16,584 bases of DNA, taken from NCBI GenBank assembly GCA_030614945.1, contig JAUXAH010000011.1:1-16584 (forward strand). Direction: 5' to 3'. The DNA is from Phycisphaerae bacterium. Lineage in GTDB: Bacteria; Planctomycetota; Phycisphaerae; Sedimentisphaerales; SG8-4. Of the stretch, positions 1,237 to 15,961 are shown piece after piece; position 1 is the first letter of the stretch, and every line of letters begins with the position of its first letter. The notes below the pieces were generated by a model. The model worked only from the letters and a program-made list of their open reading frames with translations, did no database searches and had not been told where the DNA came from. The translations under genes and the position numbers were made by a program.

Positions 1237-1722
1237 GTGAATCGGCATGTGGGAATAGCTGCCCCGGAATGGGGTTTGGGAGGAGTCGCCCCAGATCCAA
1301 ATTTCGTCGGAATCGTACCGACGCTGGCATTCGATAAACTCAGTGATGATTTCGTGCATTACTCCCTGCTTACGCCATATCGCCTAAAAGCGGGATCGAT
1401 AATCACCGTGCGAGTAGATTGGTGTTATACCGGCGGGCAGGACAATGGTACGGTATGCTGGAATCTTGAATATAATAATCTGGCAATTGGTGATGCCGTA
1501 GATGGAACGACGACAAATATATCAAAAGTGAGTGCGGGAACTCATCCAACAGGAACGAAAGTCAGGACCGTGCTCACAACGGGAATAACAGGCACCGTGG
1601 CTCGTGGAGTTATCGGCCTGAAATTGTCGAGGGATATCAGCGAGGATACACTCGATACCGATGCCGAAATGATACAAGTACATTTTGAATTCGTTATGGA
1701 TAAACTGGGACAAGCGACATAA
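1237..1722 (+). CDS. Beta-rich phage structural-type protein of unknown function
   Basis: 161 residues if started at GTG 1237. I see no Shine-Dalgarno sequence before it. The start lies six bases after the TAG of the preceding gene and in the same frame, so translation may depend on reinitiation or on read-through of that TAG. The protein is rich in beta strands, with TPYRLKAGSIITVRVDWCYTG, then GTVCWNLEYNN and DAEMIQVHFEFVMDKLG. That layout resembles a family of small virion-associated proteins in phages and prophages, in which a 'VHW..........W.LEY' pattern is followed by a terminal 'VHF.Y..D' strand. A role in the tail or appendage is inferred from position between a LamG protein and the lysis genes. 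No catalytic motif is visible. Confidence 0.6.
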   Translation: MNRHVGIAAPEWGLGGVAPDPNFVGIVPTLAFDKLSDDFVHYSLLTPYRLKAGSIITVRVDWCYTGGQDNGTVCWNLEYNNLAIGDAVDGTTTNISKVSAGTHPTGTKVRTVLTTGITGTVARGVIGLKLSRDISEDTLDTDAEMIQVHFEFVMDKLGQAT

Positions 1723-1736
1723 TCGAGGAGGATTTC

Positions 1737-1979
1737 ATGCCCTATCCCAACGAACATAGTGCCAGGATTCTAAGCCCAGGGAGCTGCACGGAAAAATACA
1801 GACGTAAAGACATCGCTCCAGGAATAAGTCTCGTTCTTTGTCAGTTAAAAGCGAATACCGAAAAATGGGCGACGCAGACATATCGATTCAAGAAGGATAA
1901 ATTCACCGCCGCCCAGGCGCGAAAGTGGTTGAAAGATCATGATATCCGTTATACATTATTCGAAGCAGCTACTGATTGA
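1737..1979 (+). CDS. Small conserved phage protein (MPYPNEHSAR type)
   Basis: 80 residues, starting at an ATG with a strong ribosome site (AGGAGG, seven bases upstream). The N-terminus MPYPNEHSARILSPGSC and the C-terminal RFKKDKFTAAQARKWLKDH resemble short proteins often encoded beside phage structural genes. The second motif also occurs in domains linked to phage head-maturation proteins. The ending YTLFEAATD fits a natural C-terminus, so the gene appears complete and not split by the homing endonuclease that follows. Function unknown; I infer a structural-module role from context. Confidence 0.65.
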   Translation: MPYPNEHSARILSPGSCTEKYRRKDIAPGISLVLCQLKANTEKWATQTYRFKKDKFTAAQARKWLKDHDIRYTLFEAATD

Positions 1980-2010
1980 CAAAAAAGAAAAACTAGCATA
2001 CATTTACAAT

Positions 2011-2062
2011 GTCGGCAGGATGCCTCCTGGGGGGAGTTTAGCACCTTCTCCCCCATACCGAC
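2011..2062 (+). other. Three-way-junction RNA fold before the homing endonuclease
   Basis: Three perfectly complementary helices nest here. GTCGG (2011-2015) pairs with CCGAC (2058-2062) as the closing stem. CAGGA (2016-2020) pairs with TCCTG (2025-2029) over loop TGCC. GGGGGAG (2030-2036) pairs with CTCCCCC (2048-2054). Only ATA (2055-2057) is unpaired at the junction. No T-run follows, so this is not a normal intrinsic terminator. It sits just upstream of the homing endonuclease start and may have arrived with that gene. Confidence 0.6.
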
Positions 2063-2088
2063 TAATTAACAGATGCAAAGGTGCCATC

Positions 2089-2676
2089 GTGAAAATTTGC
2101 AAAATAGAAGGTTGTAATAATAAATATAAAGGGAAAGGCTATTGCCAAAAACATCTTACAAGATTTCGACAATATGGTAATTCATTGTGTGGAATCGAAG
2201 AATCAAATATACTTTATCCTAATAATGTAACTGATTTTGAATTAGGATATGTTATTGGTTTATTTGAAGGCGAGGGAAATATAAGTTGTAGAGAATTTCG
2301 CGGAATAATGCATAATAATCCAATGGCATTGAAACGCCACGCACAAATTACTATCAGTAATACCAAATTAGAATTACTAGAAAAAGTACAGGAAATTTTG
2401 AAAATAGGAAAAGTAATCAAATTAAAAAAACGAGAAAATTATAAACAACTTTATATATGGAGATTAATAAAAAAACGAGAAATGTTTCGCTTTTTAAAAT
2501 TAATTAGAAAATATCTACTAGTTCATAAAGGAAAAGCAGAATTATTAATTGCATATCTGGAATCAAGAGAAAAAAATTACTGGAATAGGCATACAGAAAA
2601 AGAAGCAGATTTCTTTAGAAAATGTTGTCAATTAAAATCCTATAATAAGAATCAAAGTCGAAATGTAGATCAATGA
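2089..2676 (+). CDS. LAGLIDADG homing endonuclease, free-standing
   Basis: 195 residues from GTG 2089, chosen because AAAGGTG lies about six bases upstream and the protein then opens with its zinc-finger-like motif (C4, C9, C19, H22). The frame is open further upstream but that stretch is structured RNA, not protein-like. The LAGLIDADG helix is GYVIGLFEGEG at residues 53-63, whose acidic residue would bind the metal for DNA cleavage. I see one clear copy, which suggests action as a homodimer. The rest is Lys/Ile-rich with typical HEG beta-sheet residues (HAQITISNTK, YIWRLIKK). The gene is visibly more AT-rich than its neighbours, a sign of recent transfer. It lies between intact genes, so it is a free-standing selfish element, not an intron ORF that I can demonstrate. 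Confidence 0.85.
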   Translation: MKICKIEGCNNKYKGKGYCQKHLTRFRQYGNSLCGIEESNILYPNNVTDFELGYVIGLFEGEGNISCREFRGIMHNNPMALKRHAQITISNTKLELLEKVQEILKIGKVIKLKKRENYKQLYIWRLIKKREMFRFLKLIRKYLLVHKGKAELLIAYLESREKNYWNRHTEKEADFFRKCCQLKSYNKNQSRNVDQ

Positions 2677-2696
2677 CGGGCTGAGACGAAAGAAAA

Positions 2697-2891
2697 ATGA
2701 GCACCTGGCCTATACGAGATGTAGTTTATTTCGCTCTGATTATCTTCAATCTGGGAGGTGTTATCTGGGTAGCACGACACGTGCAGAAAACCGTGGAGCG
2801 ACGCTTGGATAACATATTCGGCAGACTGAGTGAAGTAGAAAAATTAGCGGCCCGCAACGAAGGCAAACTTAACGGCAAAAAAGACAAATAA
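2697..2891 (+). CDS. Small membrane protein with TM helix and coiled coil
   Basis: 64 residues. Residues about 8-27 (DVVYFALIIFNLGGVIWVAR) form one transmembrane helix. A charged amphipathic segment follows (VERRLDNIFGRLSEVEKLAARNEGK), likely a cytoplasmic coiled coil. The ribosome site is weak (GAAAG before ATG). It directly precedes the endolysin, a place often held by holins or small accessory proteins of the lysis module. One TM helix is compatible with a class III-type holin or an antiholin, but nothing in the sequence proves pore formation. Confidence 0.6.
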   Translation: MSTWPIRDVVYFALIIFNLGGVIWVARHVQKTVERRLDNIFGRLSEVEKLAARNEGKLNGKKDK

Positions 2892-2906
2892 TCCGGGAGG
2901 CGGATT

Positions 2907-3521
2907 ATGATCGATATAGAGAAAGATTTCCTCACTCCGAATCCGTACTCGCGGCCGCAGATTCCCATGGACTATGTACAGACAATAGACGTGCATTGGT
3001 CCGCAGCGATGAATGCGACGGCCAAAAATCTGCGAGATGCTTTCGAACGGCAAGTGGAGCTGAAAAACAACAAGGCCTCGTATCACTATTCGGTTGACTG
3101 GGACGGCGTGATTCAGTGGATGCCGATAACAGAAGTAGCCTGGTCTATCGGCGCGTTTCACTATTTTCCGTGGATTCTGGAGAAGTGGGGTTCGTCGCCG
3201 GATTTACATTCAATTGGCGTACTACTCTGCCATCGGGATAACGAATACGGTCAGTACGATAGACAGACGTTGAACAATACTGTCGATTTGCTATCTTTTC
3301 TCTGTCAGGAAAATCGCTTCCGCCCACTGACGCGTATTTTGATGCACAGTCAGTTTACGGGCAAGGGACTCCGCGGCGAGGACGAGGATCCCGACGCTCT
3401 TCCGTGTCCGCGCTATTTTATCAGCAATCCAGACGCCTGGCAGGAATTGCTCCGTGAAGTAGAACTACAGACATATAATCTGGAAATGGAGGAGAGAAAT
3501 TCGAGAGGAACGATAATATGA
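2907..3521 (+). CDS. N-acetylmuramoyl-L-alanine amidase endolysin (Amidase_2)
   Basis: 204 residues with a strong ribosome site (GGGAGG). The fold is the T7-lysozyme/PGRP amidase: strand DVHWSA with zinc ligand H30, the YHYSVDWDGVIQWMP segment (residues 60-73) typical of the family, WSIGAFH around residue 80, and second and third ligands H147 (ILMHSQF) and C167 (LPCPRYF). It would cleave the amide bond between MurNAc and L-Ala in peptidoglycan at the end of infection. There is no signal peptide, so export would need a holin, and holin-like genes follow. The last 20 residues are charged and lie outside the catalytic domain. The stop overlaps the next start (ATGA at 3518-3521). Confidence 0.9.
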   Translation: MIDIEKDFLTPNPYSRPQIPMDYVQTIDVHWSAAMNATAKNLRDAFERQVELKNNKASYHYSVDWDGVIQWMPITEVAWSIGAFHYFPWILEKWGSSPDLHSIGVLLCHRDNEYGQYDRQTLNNTVDLLSFLCQENRFRPLTRILMHSQFTGKGLRGEDEDPDALPCPRYFISNPDAWQELLREVELQTYNLEMEERNSRGTII

Positions 3522-6871: not shown

Positions 6872-7900
6872 ATGTCTGAAAAGCTACCAGCAATTCAATC
6901 CAAACAGTTAGAAGCGGTAAATCTCGTCGAAAAATACCGGGGCGAAAATGCTCTAGTATTTGTCAACAATGAGGATTTGAAAACTCATCCGCTATTCGTT
7001 CCAGAGATTACGCTACTCAAGGTTGAAAAAAAAGACTTTCACATCATTCAAGGCAAATTTATGCCAAAAAGCCACATAGCCGATCGAATCGGCGAAGCTT
7101 CCGGTGTATCATTTGTCGAAACAGGATGTTCTACTCGCACCGAAAGCGACCATGTTTATGTCGGTCGGGCCCAGGGCAAAAAACGCATGCCTGATGGAAC
7201 CTGGCGCATTTCGCAAGCGCACGAATACGAATTCGATGTAGAGGTTCGGGCGGAATTGGATTTTAATGGAAAACAAGCAGACAAATATCAAACCGATAAA
7301 TCCAAAAAACTCCACAAGCTCGAGCTCAAAAAATTCGCTCGGCAGAGATCGGGCACGGGTGCCCGCTTGAAAGTTATCAAAGAACTTGTCGGCATGGCTA
7401 CCAGTTTCGAACCTAGAGAAATAGAGACCGGGCAGATGGTATTTTGCCGCGTTGCCGTAAACACGCAGGAAATGCTCGCCGATCCCGAAATGCGCCGAGC
7501 TGCGATCAAGCACGCTCTCGGTGCTACCGAAGAGATTTTTGGGCCGTCCATAGAGCGCAACGTCACTCCCGAGAAAGAAGCGCTACCGGCACCCGAAGAA
7601 ACCGACACAGAATCCGAAAGCGAACAGCAGAAACTTGCGGGAATCCTGGACGATGATATTCCCTGGAAGGATTCACCAAAGTCGGAGCCGCCGAAAGAAC
7701 GGGTACCAACTGAGCAGGAAGTCCTTCGCTCCTGGTTCGAAGAGCGAATTGCCGAGGTCCCCGCCGAAGATACCAAAACATGGCTCAGGGATTTTCTCGC
7801 TGGTAAACTCGAAGGCAAAGATAGTCAGGATGTGGAAGTCTTGAAAAATTACAAAGAGGCGCTTGAAAGAAAGCTGAAAACTGCAGGGGGTAAGAAATGA
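6872..7900 (+). CDS. Putative phage recombination/ssDNA-annealing protein
   Basis: 342 residues from ATG 6872, with GGAGG about five bases upstream; the frame extends to 6794 but that covers the leader hairpins. The N-terminal 200 residues form an alpha/beta domain: KKDFHIIQGKFMPKSHIADRI, then EYEFDVEVRAELDF, then ELKKFARQRSGTGARLKVIK, where a basic helix could contact DNA. Phage proteins of this shape are usually unannotated or grouped loosely with annealing proteins; I do not see a definite RecT, Red-beta or Erf signature. At residues 260-265 an SSB-like acidic tip DDDIPW appears, followed by about 75 charged residues. The stop overlaps the SbcDC start (ATGA), so the two are probably co-translated and may work together on DNA ends. 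Confidence 0.5.
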   Translation: MSEKLPAIQSKQLEAVNLVEKYRGENALVFVNNEDLKTHPLFVPEITLLKVEKKDFHIIQGKFMPKSHIADRIGEASGVSFVETGCSTRTESDHVYVGRAQGKKRMPDGTWRISQAHEYEFDVEVRAELDFNGKQADKYQTDKSKKLHKLELKKFARQRSGTGARLKVIKELVGMATSFEPREIETGQMVFCRVAVNTQEMLADPEMRRAAIKHALGATEEIFGPSIERNVTPEKEALPAPEETDTESESEQQKLAGILDDDIPWKDSPKSEPPKERVPTEQEVLRSWFEERIAEVPAEDTKTWLRDFLAGKLEGKDSQDVEVLKNYKEALERKLKTAGGKK

Positions 7901-10900
7901 AACAAGTCAAAATTATCCATCTATCCGACGTGCATTTCCGCCCCGACAAAAAGGAAGAGGCGCTTATCTCGCTCCGGACCGTCATTGAAAAAGGCCGCGA
8001 AGAGCAGATCGATTTATTTGCTATCGCGGGAGATTTATTCGACCGTGCGCTTCAGAATACGACGAATAGCGGGCTCCCGGAGCTCCAGCGCACGATGCAA
8101 CAGATGATGGATGTAGCACCCGTCGTAGCCGTTACGGGGACGCCTACGCACGATATTATGGGTTGTTACGATGTTTTGCAGGAGACGCAGGCAGAGCATG
8201 GATTTACTGTGCTTGATCCCCACCATAAATATTTGCTTGTTGGCAATGAGGTTTTTAGCGATCGGGTAGAAGATTATTATTTCGACGATCGTCCCTGCAG
8301 GGGCAAACTCCTCATTCTCGGCTGTCCCGAACCCTCAAAAGAATGGTTTCTCAAAGACAAACGGATGGGGCGCGAAGAGGCGAATGCCGCGATAATCGAC
8401 GGAATGAGATCGCTATTACTTGGAATGGGAGTCAAACGTAGAGAGCATCCTGATATTCCGTGCCTGTTCGTCTATCACGGCAATGTCGAAGGCGCAACTA
8501 TGTGCAACGAGCAAGTGATTCGGTCAGGTGAAATCACGATTGGGCGCGATGATCTAGCCTTTGTGGGCGCTGATTACTACGCTCTCGGACATATTCACCT
8601 GGCGCAGCAAATCGGAGATATGCCGGCATATTATGGTGGGTCCGCTTATCCCGTGAATTGGGGGGAGATGGATCAGAAAACATTTAATCTGATCGAGATC
8701 GAAAAGGAATTGCCTGGAGTTTATACTGAAGATTCATTTACTGTATGTACTGAACGCTTTCCCTTTCCACATCCGCCAAGAAAGAAAATCATCACAGACA
8801 ATTTCGACGAAGTTGGCCAAGCCGACATTGCCAATTTTCAGACATGGCTTTGTATGCGAATACCTGAGCATGTATTATTCGATGCGGAAGATGCCCTTGA
8901 ATGGATGCTCTATCATGGTGCTCTTCTTGGTTCCCGCGTCACGATCGATGTTATTCCCACCGAAACTGTGCGGGTCGGAGAGATTCAAAAAATCAAAGGC
9001 CTTCGAGAGAAAATTAAAATCTATGCCGAAAATAGCGGGGAAACCGTAACTGAGGATATCTTGTTCAAGGCAGATAAACTTGAAGCCGAGGCGCGGGCTG
9101 CCGGTGAGATCGGTGATGGATTGCATATCGTGATCGACAAGCTGGGTCTTCGTGGTGCGACTGGAATCCGAAAAGGCCTCGGTTTAGATGAAATCTGGCT
9201 TGACTTCGATCAATACGATCCTGGCGTGATTGCCCTTATTGGCGCGAACGGAACCGGTAAAACAACGCTTTTTCGAAACCTGCAGCCATTCCCCGACATG
9301 GCCGACAAGTCCGGCACTCTTCAGGATCATTTCGACTTGGCGGATTCCTGGCGTGATTTATATTTTACCGACAAAAAAACCGATTTGCGATACCGGGCTT
9401 TCATTCAGATTGATGGTCAAAATGAGACTGGCAAATGCGAGTATCATCTATATCGCGATGGACAGCCACTCACCGATGGTCGGTTGGCGAGCTATGCGGC
9501 CAAAATTGTTGAACCCTATGGTAGCAAGGAGCTTTTTCTTCGCGGCACCTACGTCTCACAGAAAAACACGAAAAAATATCCCGCCCTATCCGAAGCAACG
9601 AAAGGAGAAAAGAAGGCAATCTTCCGGGAGCTCAGTGGATTGGATTATCTGCAAACGTATGCCGATGACAGCAAGGCAAGCGGTAAAACTCTTGCAGAGA
9701 CTGTACTGCAAGACCAGGGACGAACGGAAACTCTGGAAGTACTCGTTAGCGCACTTCCAGATAAAAAAATGAAATTGGCAGGGATTGATTATGAATTGAT
9801 AGATGCCGAGAAAATCTTGACTGGGCGTGAGATTACCGGCAGGCAGGCGAAAAAAGTAAAAGACGATCTTGAAGAAAAATCGATGCAACAAGGAATTCTT
9901 CAGCAAAAAATCGATAGCAAGAAAGAAGAGCAAAAAAAGATCGAATATGAACGAGACGATCTTTGTGACGGGAATCGGGAATATGCGGCAGCTCTTGAAG
10001 GAAAGCCGGAAGCTGAAAAACAGATCGTGGAGTATGAATCCCTGAAAGCGCAGGAGGCGAAACTCAATGAAGAAAAAGCCGGAATCCTTGCTGTACGAGA
10101 GGAACTCCTTGCTGAGCATCGAAACGCTGTCGATATTGCATATGCGGCTGGCAAAAAGGTCGATGTGCAAAAAACCGAAAAAATGCAAGAAAAGGCTGAT
10201 TTTTCGACGAAAAAGGCCACTTTGCTAGCAAATATCGCAAATTTAATCGAAAAAACGGAAAAACCGCTTGATGAGAAATGTCCGACATGCCGGCAGATAT
10301 TACCTGAAGGAATGCTGGACGATCTAAGAGACAAGCGCGAATACGATCTGTTGGCGCTAAAGCAGATACAATCAGAGGAATTCGAGATTGAAAAAGAGAT
10401 TGTCGATTGCGACAAGCAGATCGACGCCTTCGATCGACAGAAAGCCGGGATTGTCGAGCCGGTCGAACCGGTGTGGCCAGAGTTGCCGGAATTTGACGAG
10501 GAAGCATTTGACGGCGTCAAGATGAGCATCGCTCGCGTCCCTATCAACTCTGCCCGAGAAACGCTCGCTCAGGCCCAGGAAGCCGCTATCAAGATCGCTG
10601 AGAACGAGAAGTGGGTTACCCAACTTACGACTGAAGTTTGCGTGTTGGAAAGTGAGATTCTGGAATTAAAAATGAAGATCGATCCAGAGCTTGAAATGAA
10701 ACATCGAGATGCTTGCACTGATTACGAAAACGCCAAGGCAAAATACATCGAAGCTCGGGAGCAGGTCAAAGGCCTCGAAGTCGAGCAGAAGAATCTTGAA
10801 GATCAGATTGCCGAACTTGAAAAACAGTCTGAAGAGTTGCAAGAAATCAGACAGTCGATCGAGGAAAAGCAAACCGACATCGCTGATTGGACTTGGCTCA

Positions 10901-11448
10901 TGCGAGCGTGTGGACCCGACGGAATACAGGCTCTGGAGCTTGATGCCATGGGTCCGGGAATCGCCAAAGTTGCGAACAAGTTGCTTGGTATAGCTTTCGA
11001 ATGTAATCCGTGGAATGCCGAAAAACGAGAAGGTAATCCATTCAACCAGGTCGAATTCAGGACGACTCGCATAGGCGGCAGTGGCAGCAAGCGAAAGCAA
11101 ATTGAAGATTTTCTGATCTTCGCTCATGACGTGCGAGATGATACTTGGACTGAAATATCCAACATTTCTGGCGGGGAATCGGTCTGGGTGATACGCGCGA
11201 TCTACGACGCTTTTGGAATCGTCCGAGATGAAAATACAGGACAGCGCTTTTTCACGGTGATGCAGGACGAATCGGACGGCGCCTTAGATCCAGATGCACG
11301 ACTGGCCTATTTTCGGATGCTCGAAGCGGCGCACGAGGAAAGTGGACGCCGGCATACGCTCGTGATTACACACAGTCAGGACGCTCAGGAGATGATTTCG
11401 CAGAAAATCGAAATGGCGGAGTTTGCAAACCAGGAGGAAACACCATGA
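7897..11448 (+). CDS. SbcD-SbcC (Mre11-Rad50-like) nuclease-ATPase fused in one chain
   Basis: 1183 residues. The N-terminal metallophosphoesterase shows SDVHF (D11, H13), GDLFD (45-49), GTPTHD (81-86, replacing the usual GNHD), YHG (193-195) and LGHIHL (230-235): the SbcD/Mre11 nuclease set. A capping domain and linker follow to about residue 405. The SbcC/Rad50 part then has Walker A GANGTGKTT (449-457), a coiled coil from about 640, the zinc hook CPTC (795-798), a returning coiled coil to about 1020, ABC signature SGGES (1091-1095), Walker B ending QDE (1123-1125), D-loop GALD and the switch His at 1159 (VITHS). Every key residue is present, so an active ATP-dependent end-processing enzyme is expected. 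SbcC and SbcD (T4 gp46 and gp47) are normally separate proteins. No stop or frameshift occurs at the junction. Confidence 0.93.
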   Translation: MKQVKIIHLSDVHFRPDKKEEALISLRTVIEKGREEQIDLFAIAGDLFDRALQNTTNSGLPELQRTMQQMMDVAPVVAVTGTPTHDIMGCYDVLQETQAEHGFTVLDPHHKYLLVGNEVFSDRVEDYYFDDRPCRGKLLILGCPEPSKEWFLKDKRMGREEANAAIIDGMRSLLLGMGVKRREHPDIPCLFVYHGNVEGATMCNEQVIRSGEITIGRDDLAFVGADYYALGHIHLAQQIGDMPAYYGGSAYPVNWGEMDQKTFNLIEIEKELPGVYTEDSFTVCTERFPFPHPPRKKIITDNFDEVGQADIANFQTWLCMRIPEHVLFDAEDALEWMLYHGALLGSRVTIDVIPTETVRVGEIQKIKGLREKIKIYAENSGETVTEDILFKADKLEAEARAAGEIGDGLHIVIDKLGLRGATGIRKGLGLDEIWLDFDQYDPGVIALIGANGTGKTTLFRNLQPFPDMADKSGTLQDHFDLADSWRDLYFTDKKTDLRYRAFIQIDGQNETGKCEYHLYRDGQPLTDGRLASYAAKIVEPYGSKELFLRGTYVSQKNTKKYPALSEATKGEKKAIFRELSGLDYLQTYADDSKASGKTLAETVLQDQGRTETLEVLVSALPDKKMKLAGIDYELIDAEKILTGREITGRQAKKVKDDLEEKSMQQGILQQKIDSKKEEQKKIEYERDDLCDGNREYAAALEGKPEAEKQIVEYESLKAQEAKLNEEKAGILAVREELLAEHRNAVDIAYAAGKKVDVQKTEKMQEKADFSTKKATLLANIANLIEKTEKPLDEKCPTCRQILPEGMLDDLRDKREYDLLALKQIQSEEFEIEKEIVDCDKQIDAFDRQKAGIVEPVEPVWPELPEFDEEAFDGVKMSIARVPINSARETLAQAQEAAIKIAENEKWVTQLTTEVCVLESEILELKMKIDPELEMKHRDACTDYENAKAKYIEAREQVKGLEVEQKNLEDQIAELEKQSEELQEIRQSIEEKQTDIADWTWLMRACGPDGIQALELDAMGPGIAKVANKLLGIAFECNPWNAEKREGNPFNQVEFRTTRIGGSGSKRKQIEDFLIFAHDVRDDTWTEISNISGGESVWVIRAIYDAFGIVRDENTGQRFFTVMQDESDGALDPDARLAYFRMLEAAHEESGRRHTLVITHSQDAQEMISQKIEMAEFANQEETP

Positions 11449-13075: not shown

Positions 13076-13214
13076 ATTGCTCGGTAGCCTACGGAAAGCC
13101 GTTCGAGCATCGCCTGAGAGCGACGTGGATTGTGTGTATGGCTGCGGAATGCAATCCGAGAGTGCGCCGACATGAGCACGGAGCCGGGTGGAAGCCCCGG
13201 CAACATGGGCCAAT

Positions 13215-13300
13215 GGGTCAGTGACCGAGGGGCGAAGGAGCTTGGCTGTAAACCAGGTGCCACAGGCTAAACATCGTAGGTTCAAGTCCTACCTGGCCCA
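13215..13300 (+). tRNA. tRNA-Tyr (GTA)
   Basis: 86 nt. The acceptor GGGTCAG (13215-13221) pairs with CTGGCCC (13293-13299), with discriminator A at 13300. The D region ACCGAGGGGCGAAGGAG resembles bacterial tRNA-Tyr. The anticodon arm is CTTGG-CTGTAAA-CCAGG, giving anticodon GTA. A long variable arm (about 18 bases, with GCC/GGC) marks it as class II, as expected for bacterial Tyr. The T arm GTAGG-TTCAAGT-CCTAC is perfect. CCA is not encoded. It may support decoding of Tyr codons in phage mRNAs. Confidence 0.88.
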
Positions 13301-13369
13301 ATAGCTGGGCGCAAACCGTCGTTGGCGGTTGCTTGGCGCACACATCGTCATGTGGCGATGTTATTACGG

Positions 13370-14130: not shown

Positions 14131-14241
14131 ATGGACGCAACCATCATTCAAAAAATCTTGTGGTTCGGCATACTGATTATTTTAGGCATAGGTGTTTTGG
14201 CGCTTTTTGTCGCCGTGGTTGTCCGACGATCGAACAGATGA
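14131..14241 (+). CDS. Tiny single-TM membrane protein (36 aa)
   Basis: 36 residues with AGGAGG six bases before ATG. Nearly the whole protein is one hydrophobic helix (ILWFGILIILGIGVLALF) followed by VVVRRSNR, a positive-inside tail. It may be a small membrane modulator. Unrecognised. Confidence 0.55.
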   Translation: MDATIIQKILWFGILIILGIGVLALFVAVVVRRSNR

Positions 14242-14254
14242 AACGAGAGAAAAA

Positions 14255-15961
14255 ATGATCGAGCGCAATAAAATAATCTGCTGTAATGTATTGGAGGGAT
14301 TGGGCGGGCTGCCGGGTGACAGCATAGATTGCTGCGTGACGAGTCCTCCTTATTGGGGCCTCCGGGACTATAATGTGAATGGTCAGATCGGTCTCGAGTC
14401 CACTCTCGAAGAATATATCGCTCGGCTTACACAGGTGTTTCATGAGATTAAACGGGTGCTGAAGCCTGATGGTAGTCTTTGGCTTAATATGGGGGATGCT
14501 TATGGTGGTCCAGCAGGAAATAATCGGAGCGGATTCCAAAACCCTAAAGATCAAAGTGGTATGGCTATTCATTCAGGGAAAAAACAGCCAAAGGATATGC
14601 GAGCCAAAGACTTGATTGGCCAACCCTGGCGCCTTGCCCTCGCGCTCCAAGCCGATGGATGGTATCTCCGATCGGATATCGTAGAAAAACAAACTTGGTT
14701 ATGTCCTTGCTGCGGCGAAGAAATGGAAATAGTGCGGCAAAATTGTGACAGGGATATTATTTGGGAAAAACCGAATCCCATGCCGGAGAGCGTAACTGAT
14801 CGCCCGACAAAAGCCCATGAATACCTGTTTTTGATGACGAAGAATCCGAGATATTTTTATGATAGTTTAGCTATTCGAGAGTCTGCTTCGGCGGGGACTG
14901 CAAACGGCGCAGCGCTTGGCGGTTCCGCTTTGACTCCAGAAATGCGCTCCGCATTGAACGCAAATAATGTCACGACGAATTTGCGCGGGAGGTTGGACTT
15001 TCGTAAGCCGGAGATAACCATCAATGGCACGGTGACACGGAAGGCATTGGACTTGAAGATTGTCAAGTGCATTTGCTTTGAGATAATTGTCGAACAAACG
15101 GAACGGCAATATGTGATGAACCTGGAGCCTTGTGCTAATACCGCATCGCTCACAGATATAACCACTGCGCTCCAAGGCGCGGCGACGGGCGGTTTTCCAA
15201 TTAGGGCCACGATAATCAATACGGCCTCCGCGCCAAGTATGGCTATTGGGGCCAATCCGGTGAATACTATTCCATTGATCGGAACAAGCGCGACAACAAA
15301 AAATATGCTTCAAGTTAGGCCTGAAGAACAACTGACTCGCATAACGCCAAAAGGCTTTCCCGCATTGCTCGCATTGCATTTTAATGAAACGAGTGCGCCC
15401 TTTTTTGTTAAGGGAACCTTTATGCCTTCCCATATGCGCCAAGATACCAGAAATATTCAAGAAAATCAAGGCCGCAACAAGCGTACTGTCTGGACGATTG
15501 CGACGCAGCCCATGCCCGACGCACATTTCGCTACATTTCCTGAGAAGCTGGTCGAGCCCTGTATCCTGGCCGGCACAAGCGAGCGGGGATATTGCAGCGA
15601 GTGCGGGAGGCCGTGGGTGAGGATAGTTGAAAAAGCAAAAGTTCCTTATGTAGATACAAGAGTACATGGTAAGCATAAAGGAGTAAATGAAAGCAAAATA
15701 AGAGGTGGGGATTTACAAAAATGGTTAAACGAACATCCCACTCAGACAATAGGCTGGAAAGCTGAATGCAACTGCAATGCCAAAACCGTACCGGGCCTCG
15801 TTCTCGATCCATTCATGGGCTCAGGAACTGTGGCCTTGGTAGCGTACAGACTCGACCGAGACTTCATTGGATTCGAGCTCTCGAAAGAATATTGCGAGAT
15901 GGCTCAAAAACGAATTGCTGCTGAAGTAGATCAAGGTAGACTTTTTGTGGAGGGAAATTGA
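14255..15961 (+). CDS. Beta-class DNA methyltransferase with an in-frame insertion carrying an antisense HNH gene
   Basis: 568 residues from ATG 14255. Motif IV is SPPY (residues 30-33, in CVTSPPYWGLRDY) and motif I is DPFMGSGT (518-525) near the C-terminus, the IV-TRD-I order of beta-class N4-cytosine or N6-adenine methyltransferases. Conserved segments KPNPMPESVTDRPTKAHEY, RNKRTVWTIATQP (from 407) and FATFPEKLVEPCILAG match the family. Residues about 208-405 do not look like methyltransferase; they are the exact complement of an HNH endonuclease gene read on the other strand, yet contain no stop. A Cys cluster (C150, C152, C153, C164) also interrupts the usual SDIIW segment. Activity is uncertain: the catalytic motifs are intact but the recognition region is replaced. 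The end overlaps the ribosome site of the next gene. Confidence 0.85.
   Translation: MIERNKIICCNVLEGLGGLPGDSIDCCVTSPPYWGLRDYNVNGQIGLESTLEEYIARLTQVFHEIKRVLKPDGSLWLNMGDAYGGPAGNNRSGFQNPKDQSGMAIHSGKKQPKDMRAKDLIGQPWRLALALQADGWYLRSDIVEKQTWLCPCCGEEMEIVRQNCDRDIIWEKPNPMPESVTDRPTKAHEYLFLMTKNPRYFYDSLAIRESASAGTANGAALGGSALTPEMRSALNANNVTTNLRGRLDFRKPEITINGTVTRKALDLKIVKCICFEIIVEQTERQYVMNLEPCANTASLTDITTALQGAATGGFPIRATIINTASAPSMAIGANPVNTIPLIGTSATTKNMLQVRPEEQLTRITPKGFPALLALHFNETSAPFFVKGTFMPSHMRQDTRNIQENQGRNKRTVWTIATQPMPDAHFATFPEKLVEPCILAGTSERGYCSECGRPWVRIVEKAKVPYVDTRVHGKHKGVNESKIRGGDLQKWLNEHPTQTIGWKAECNCNAKTVPGLVLDPFMGSGTVALVAYRLDRDFIGFELSKEYCEMAQKRIAAEVDQGRLFVEGN
14867..15433 (-). CDS. HNH homing endonuclease, antisense inside the methyltransferase
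   Basis: 188 residues from ATG 15433, the only confident minus-strand gene. It opens MGRHKGSLNKKG, as do many phage HNH proteins ('MGR.KGS.NK'). A zinc-ribbon pair follows (CEQCG, then CCRAC), then CERCG, the HNH core LQVHHILPF, NLQVQCLPCHRAID, and a C-terminal CVQCG..CAVC ribbon. The His pair and the downstream Asn and His would bind the catalytic metal. Its frame also extends upstream to 15676, but that part is antisense to conserved methyltransferase sequence and I reject it. The ribosome site is weak. The last eight residues and the stop are encoded opposite conserved methyltransferase codons (SLAIRES), so the element uses host sequence for its end. Confidence 0.8.
   Translation of the reverse strand: MGRHKGSLNKKGRTRFIKMQCEQCGKAFWRYASQLFFRPNLKHIFCCRACSDQWNSIHRIGPNSHTWRGGRIDYRGPNWKTARRRALERSGYICERCGISTRLQVHHILPFRLFDNYLKANALDNLQVQCLPCHRAIDGYLRLTKVQPPAQIRRDIICVQCGAHFWSQSGTAKRCAVCSPRRSRLSNS

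Follow-up and report, generated by a model that had tools for sequence, protein, structure and literature searches.

The distal part of a 16,584-nt stretch of Phycisphaerae contig JAUXAH010000011.1 (hereafter the window) raises the question of how an HNH endonuclease gene can lie inside a DNA methyltransferase gene, on the opposite strand, while both reading frames stay open. An earlier note, drawn from the letters of the window, had reported that the two frames share their codon boundaries, and we indeed find the minus-strand ORF within the plus-strand ORF in exact antisense codon register. The features that bear on the question are as follows, in window coordinates.

14255..15961, plus strand: DNA methyltransferase ORF of 568 aa, open and continuous across the insert; Pfam N6_N4_Mtase (PF01555) at 5.3e-43
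14342..14353, plus strand: SPPY, residues 30-33; invariant in an 8-sequence alignment
14867..14869, minus strand: HNH stop codon TAA, which is plus-strand TTA (Leu205); within the conserved motif Y-F-Y-D-x-x-A-I-R-E (window: YFYD-S-L-AIRE)
14867..15433, minus strand: HNH endonuclease gene; 188 aa; Pfam HNH (PF01844) at 1.7e-6, above cut-off, and PHROG HNH at 2.3e-20
14888..15469, plus strand: insert in the plus frame, residues 212-405 (~190 aa), between the SPPY side and the DPFMGSGT side
15026..15154, minus strand: HNH domain (Pfam match), minus-ORF residues 94-136
15441..15469, minus strand: candidate promoter TTGATT-17-TATCTT, 7 nt before the HNH ATG; 8/12 consensus matches, weak
15470..15961, plus strand: methyltransferase C-terminal half, retaining 29/29 conserved columns downstream of the insert; DPFMGSGT at 15806-15829

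From its motifs, we assign the plus ORF to the phage-type beta-class N6/N4 DNA methyltransferases, with methylation in the presence of the insert as its predicted function. SPPY, which we take to be catalytic motif IV, precedes DPFMGSGT, presumably motif I, an order that we assume to define the beta class, and relatives of the CcrM, RsrI and MboIIA type were found in the PDB by both profile and fold. An in-frame GTG at 14192 would extend this ORF to 589 aa. The minus ORF matches the HNH profiles against which the earlier note had proposed to search it (values listed above). Across five HNH proteins 29 columns are invariant, Cys and His among them; the conserved Cys pairs and the His of the HNH domain have zinc-binding and catalytic roles. 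Its close HNH-called relatives are P0123 (55%) and P0124 (58%). The minus frame is open upstream as far as 15676, beyond the ATG at 15433, but P0123 starts with MGRxxGSxNKKGR, as does the window protein read from that ATG, which makes the shorter gene likelier. No ribosome-binding site is evident for the HNH gene, and a promoter scan at a threshold of 9/12 returned three sites, compared with 2.8 in shuffled sequences, none of them at the HNH gene.

We asked whether the segment shared by the two genes is an ordinary part of the methyltransferase. A protein search with the full plus ORF gave 7995 matches, 120 of which were listed; subtracting the window's own ORF, a homologue with an intein-like insert (P0106) and three bearers of the window-type insert leaves 115 listed homologues, 100 of them 355-420 aa in length. 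An HMM of the ~190-aa segment had no match in the 115 listed homologues or in P0106, and was found only in the window's methyltransferase (P0001) and six relatives. Three of these (P0005, P0009 and P0020) are among the 120 listed matches and carry the insert at the same site, alignable end to end, while P0127, P0128 and P0129 came from a second search with the P0009 insert alone as query. This second search missed P0001 and P0005; its reach is short, the census of bearers is incomplete, and more may therefore exist. In all seven, the insert follows the motif YxxDxxA[IV]R and precedes the motif RNxxxxW or the loop before it.

The six other bearers are known as called proteins and were hence ascertained as open ORFs. 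Insert-alignment scans of viral and genome contigs yielded no insert-bearing DNA locus, the P0009 insert had no tblastn match among phages and plasmids, and a set of 98 methyltransferase loci for which DNA was available (18 from one search and the best 80 of 583 from another) contained no window-type HNH at E 1e-3. HNH scans of contigs with DNA gave 30 + 5 viral loci and one weak genome locus, with none from one earlier viral scan. At two of these DNA loci, a relative of the window HNH lies antisense in or next to methyltransferase sequence: at motif I, with another methyltransferase C-terminus on the far side of the HNH (L022:2590-3508), and between two methyltransferase-like pieces (L027:2584-3553). 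The methyltransferase frame is not carried through in either.

Around the insert, the methyltransferase of the window appears intact. From an alignment of 53 of the 115 insert-free homologues we defined 89 conserved columns; P0001 retains 89/89, with 29/29 downstream of the insert, as does P0020. The other five bearers (P0005, P0009, P0127, P0128 and P0129) keep 71-80 of the 89 (80-90%) and 23-28 of the 29 downstream, compared with 92-100% for insert-free rows each left out in turn, a reduction that may reflect clade distance or relaxed constraint. The claim that the insertion leaves a translatable methyltransferase is upheld by the complete columns of P0001 and by six relatives with the same insert in which both readings are possible.

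For these six relatives, antisense coding capacity was assessed from protein, each plus residue limiting the residues that its antisense codon can encode. HNH-invariant residues are possible at 28/29 positions in each of P0005, P0009 and P0020 and at 29/29 in each of P0127, P0128 and P0129, while shuffled inserts allow means of 5.3-5.9 of 29, with a maximum of 13. An HMM built from the four HNH proteins P0123-P0126 only, with no methyltransferase and without P0002, scored means of 27-55 bits on the antisense of the inserts written in random synonymous codons, compared with at most 5.4 for shuffled inserts and backbones. Of the residue changes relative to the window insert, 82-91% remain compatible with an antisense HNH at positions conserved in three close HNH proteins, as opposed to 35-46% elsewhere. 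Judged by this protein-level reconstruction, the HNH is very probably encoded antisense in all seven bearers; that the frame has also been maintained in the six relatives is suggested by their being called as open proteins. The reading under which the middle region is a normal recognition domain lacking HNH similarity on its other strand is excluded as far as tested, with the insert HMM found in 0 of the 115 listed homologues and the antisense strand fitting HNH in 7 of 7 bearers.

The end of the HNH gene provides a separate trace of the overlap. Its stop codon is the complement of Leu205, within a conserved host motif; among 53 insert-free homologues, residue 205 is Glu or Asp in 50 and Leu or Ser in none. 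In contrast, Leu or Ser occupies residue 205 in P0001, P0009, P0127 and P0128 and the preceding residue (204) in P0005, and is absent from the HNH stop position in P0129 and P0020. Leu or Ser at 204 or 205 therefore occurs in 5/7 bearers versus 1/53 insert-free homologues (Fisher 2e-5, a value inflated by relatedness, with three lineages represented) or 3/101 by motif search. In several relatives, Ser at the motif YFYD-x-x-A-I/V-R-E could serve as the complement of the HNH stop, like Leu in the window. The C-terminus LSNG of the HNH protein P0124 is compatible with the antisense of the same host motif, and P0124 may lie in a methyltransferase too; P0123 and P0124, both called as HNH genes, might alternatively sit in broken or different contexts.

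How much does an open antisense frame mean by itself? For the plus frame to stay open, the HNH gene must avoid TTA, CTA and TCA, and the earlier count of 14 Leu and 13 Ser proved correct, with 0 of these 27 codons being TTA, CTA or TCA. The chance of 3 in 10,000 attached to this count stands under uniform codon use, but with the codon use of the window, P(no antisense stop) is 0.0026. Empirically, 43 of 1479 188-codon windows in 11 other genes of the window are equally open when read antisense in this register. Of the 36 related HNH loci for which DNA was available, one (L036, GC 0.64) lacks antisense stops across its whole ORF; in none of the 36 is the antisense-register frame open through the whole HNH ORF and well past both ends, the nearest being L036, open beyond the ORF ends by 18 and 57 nt. 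Considering the matched stretch alone, 5 of 30 distinct HNH relatives have no antisense stop, four at GC 0.60-0.64 and one over just 44 codons; below a GC of 0.55 this falls to 1/15, the 44-codon match. Ser codons in the window HNH are AGY in 10/13 cases, compared with 55/147 in other window genes (p=0.004) and 50/168 in relatives. Long in-register antisense ORFs are also present in many methyltransferase loci (counted by ORF alone, with homology tested for the same-strand ORF of L124), and for this reason we did not take an open antisense frame alone as evidence. Openness of the frame by itself is of modest weight, and, given that chance openness at this level and some open HNH relatives are observed, our case rests on the insert-bearing relatives.

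These relatives also indicate which strand constrains the insert. Across the P0009 clade, substitutions in the insert fall on plus codon positions 1 and 2 in a ratio of 204:27, compared with 167:117 in the backbone (counts from 6 non-independent pairs of 4 sequences, excluding 31 multi-step, 27 ambiguous and 10 position-3 changes in the insert, and 260, 26 and 19, respectively, in the backbone). Because plus position 1 corresponds to HNH position 3, the HNH appears to be the main constraint, with the plus peptide drifting where the HNH allows. An AlphaFold model of the 568-aa protein (mean pLDDT 67.9) predicts the methyltransferase core confidently, the nearest folds being those of MboIIA, BceJIV, CcrM and RsrI, while blocks of the insert range over pLDDT 28-67, a low confidence; no Pfam domain was found in the plus-frame insert. 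Variation mostly at HNH-silent positions and low model confidence make the insert look like a tolerated loop, as which it would be translated within the enzyme. The same two observations fail to bear out a further suggestion of the earlier note, that these ~195 residues have become part of the recognition region.

A homing gene should be distributed out of step with its host. In a quick tree built from 122 methyltransferase backbones after removal of the insert (SH-aLRT support only; P0003, the window's own ORF, and the intein-bearing P0106 left out), the seven bearers, a small sample, are scattered, requiring 4 state changes in all, at least 3 of them forced by starred branches; on this tree, the insert is patchy and confined to a single site. 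P0001 groups with the insert-free P0004 and P0007 (97, starred), sharing backbone identities of 68% and 71% with them, respectively, while its insert is 43% identical to that of P0005 and 42% to that of P0009. This pattern reflects either transfer to one site or many precise losses, of which transfer seems likelier.

Together, these findings make it probable, in our view, that the window holds a splice-free HNH homing gene, tolerated because its antisense strand reads as an open, translatable loop of the methyltransferase. A small HNH gene would have inserted backwards into the variable loop that joins the catalytic (motif IV) and cofactor (motif I) halves of the enzyme, ending within host codons such that its stop is the complement of a host Leu codon. 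Expressed from the minus strand, perhaps via the weak TTGATT-17-TATCTT, the HNH protein would cut insert-free alleles, into which the gene would then be copied by repair. The HNH gene would not kill its host gene, because the antisense strand is stop-free; this strand, stop-free by chance and probably obliged to stay so, would be translated as an enzyme loop of ~190 residues. Neither RNA splicing nor protein splicing would be required.

Several other explanations deserve consideration. The insertion may have inactivated the methyltransferase, its open plus frame being a lucky survival in a decaying enzyme, as the 43 of 1479 windows open by chance and the reduced columns (71-80/89) of five of the seven bearers would allow. 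We consider this improbable: P0001 and P0020 hold all 89 columns, the other five still keep 23-28 of the 29 downstream, and neutral drift should yield mostly broken copies, whereas the HNH protein search (45 candidates) found two close HNH-called proteins only. Removal of the insert by splicing, as a self-splicing intron with an antisense HNH or as an intein-like element, has precedents in the antisense homing genes of rDNA group I introns (going by the accessible text of PMC9548176) and in the intein-like insert elsewhere in the homologous methyltransferase P0106. However, no Rfam intron was found in the window at the gathering threshold, a tRNA being the only match; HNH coding sequence takes up nearly the whole insert, so that a ribozyme would not fit; and Pfam detects no intein splicing domain in P0001, yet does so in P0106 (1.2e-06, below the curated cut-off). 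Splicing is accordingly a very unlikely account. Slighter still is the chance that the HNH gene was overprinted on a segment that serves the methyltransferase as a real recognition domain. In line with this, the plus-frame inserts of all seven proteins can be aligned, but HNH relatives exist outside methyltransferases (haloviral and other HNH genes), the plus segment contains no Pfam domain, its substitutions track the HNH frame, and the 115 listed homologues lack it.

A closer question is whether the methyltransferase strand is itself under selection. That the HNH alone is selected and homes, with the antisense frame open through composition and survivorship, is a possibility we take seriously but hold to be rather unlikely. 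The dominance of HNH-silent sites in insert evolution, the low AlphaFold confidence there and the recovery of all relatives as open ORFs are what it would predict; it accounts less readily for the lack of stops at the 27 at-risk codons of the window and in the six relatives (these being ascertained as open), the AGY preference for Ser, or the alteration of a host motif residue where it can carry the HNH stop. Conversely, we are doubtful that both strands are selected, one for the HNH and the other for an open peptide that is now a lasting part of the enzyme's recognition region. If so, the host protein would set the codon choice of its parasite (no TTA, CTA or TCA, and a stop lent by a host Leu or Ser codon), and the insert may alter recognition by the enzyme.

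The preferred reading, a homing gene hidden in a tolerated loop, sits in a window that also encodes a LAGLIDADG endonuclease (1939-2676, plus strand; 1e-07) upstream of an amidase gene, so that at least two homing-type genes are present. Elsewhere, the window contains a tRNA-Tyr gene (13214-13301, plus strand) and a 1183-aa ORF (7897-11448, plus strand) whose calcineurin-like phosphoesterase start (3.5e-06) is joined to an SMC/ABC-like ATPase (matches below cut-off), resembling fused SbcD and SbcC. P0106 carries its intein-like insert after RSDIIW (PF14890 at 1.2e-06, under the curated cut-off), indicating that this methyltransferase family is targeted by several kinds of insert. The methylase of Mycobacterium phage Mantra (L135:1461-3785) similarly combines an in-frame LAGLIDADG endonuclease (6.3e-16) with an out-of-frame HNH.

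Persistence of homing genes inside protein-coding genes is commonly attributed to introns or inteins that conceal them. Together with the ShiLan insertions of phage methylases, the window suggests a further survival route, in which the host frame is left open in another reading. The antisense codon-register form of this route is highly constraining, because each base serves both proteins, making it a natural experiment in dual coding in which tolerance can be counted per strand. Hidden genes of this kind are easily missed, as the relatives are recorded simply as longer methyltransferase ORFs. Going by titles and the beginnings of abstracts, none of the papers listed in literature searches appears to report a homing gene that lies antisense within the reading frame of a host protein.

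Arsenault, Gosselin and Gogarten 2025 (PMC11855218) describe same-strand hidden HNH insertions with disjunct distributions in mycobacteriophage methylases, as the ShiLan domain with a hidden, out-of-frame HNH endonuclease (see also Gosselin et al. 2023, PMC9957025); a further methylase whose HNH is out of frame is reported in PMC12613952. We encountered the same-strand form in our own searches. A metagenomic viral locus (L124) has an uninterrupted 552-aa methyltransferase ORF (1480-3138) with an HNH_3 gene (2450-2923; 4.9e-12) on the same strand in another frame, just before motif I. Relatives of this HNH were found in 94 phage records. Ten in which the match falls within an annotated methylase were examined, from nine mycobacteriophages and from Cylindrospermopsis phage Cr-LKS3, and all 10 have the HNH match in the offset-2 frame relative to the methylase. 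In Cr-LKS3 (L138:1971-3821), the HNH_3 gene occupies the offset-2 frame inside an open methylase CDS; the word 'Cylindrospermopsis' is absent from the main text of PMC11855218. In OwlsT2W (L143:1680-3596) and ShiLan (L144:711-3593), the annotated methylase CDS with its hidden HNH stops before the DPFAGSGT motif and a short separate methyltransferase CDS comes next, so these two copies look split.

Compared with other homing systems, the window element shares single features with several. Antisense homing genes in nuclear rDNA group I introns likewise oppose their host gene, but, by the accessible text of PMC9548176, they sit in a self-splicing intron of an rRNA gene, with no host protein frame. 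Inteins with homing endonucleases, as treated in the main text of PMC11855218, are in-frame in a conserved enzyme gene and translated with their host, as is the window insert, but they splice out and carry the endonuclease in the host frame, whereas no splicing domain was detected in the window insert. Free-standing phage HNH genes (PHROG 8446 and 1271; haloviral HNH genes) encode the same protein family as the minus ORF but, unlike it, are annotated as ordinary separate genes.

The closest parallel is the ShiLan domain. As there (PMC11855218 and PMC9957025, by their accessible text), an HNH lies within the uninterrupted ORF of a phage DNA methylase, with no intron, intein or other splicing element and no stop in the host frame, and as in the main text of PMC11855218, the distribution is patchy, suggesting homing, and the insert is predicted to be a tolerated loop. 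In contrast, the ShiLan HNH described there shares the strand of its host, reads in the third frame from a GTG start and occupies a different site, while the window HNH runs opposite to its host with codon boundaries in exact register; 'antisense', 'opposite' and 'reverse' are absent from the main text of PMC11855218. The ShiLan-type loci we tested match HNH_3, whereas the window HNH matches PF01844 and, unlike ShiLan, has its stop within a host motif. The window element works like ShiLan but differs in strand and frame, and it is not a member of the ShiLan element family. Repeated in relatives, it instead adds a new, antisense form to the hidden HNH insertions without splicing that were described recently.
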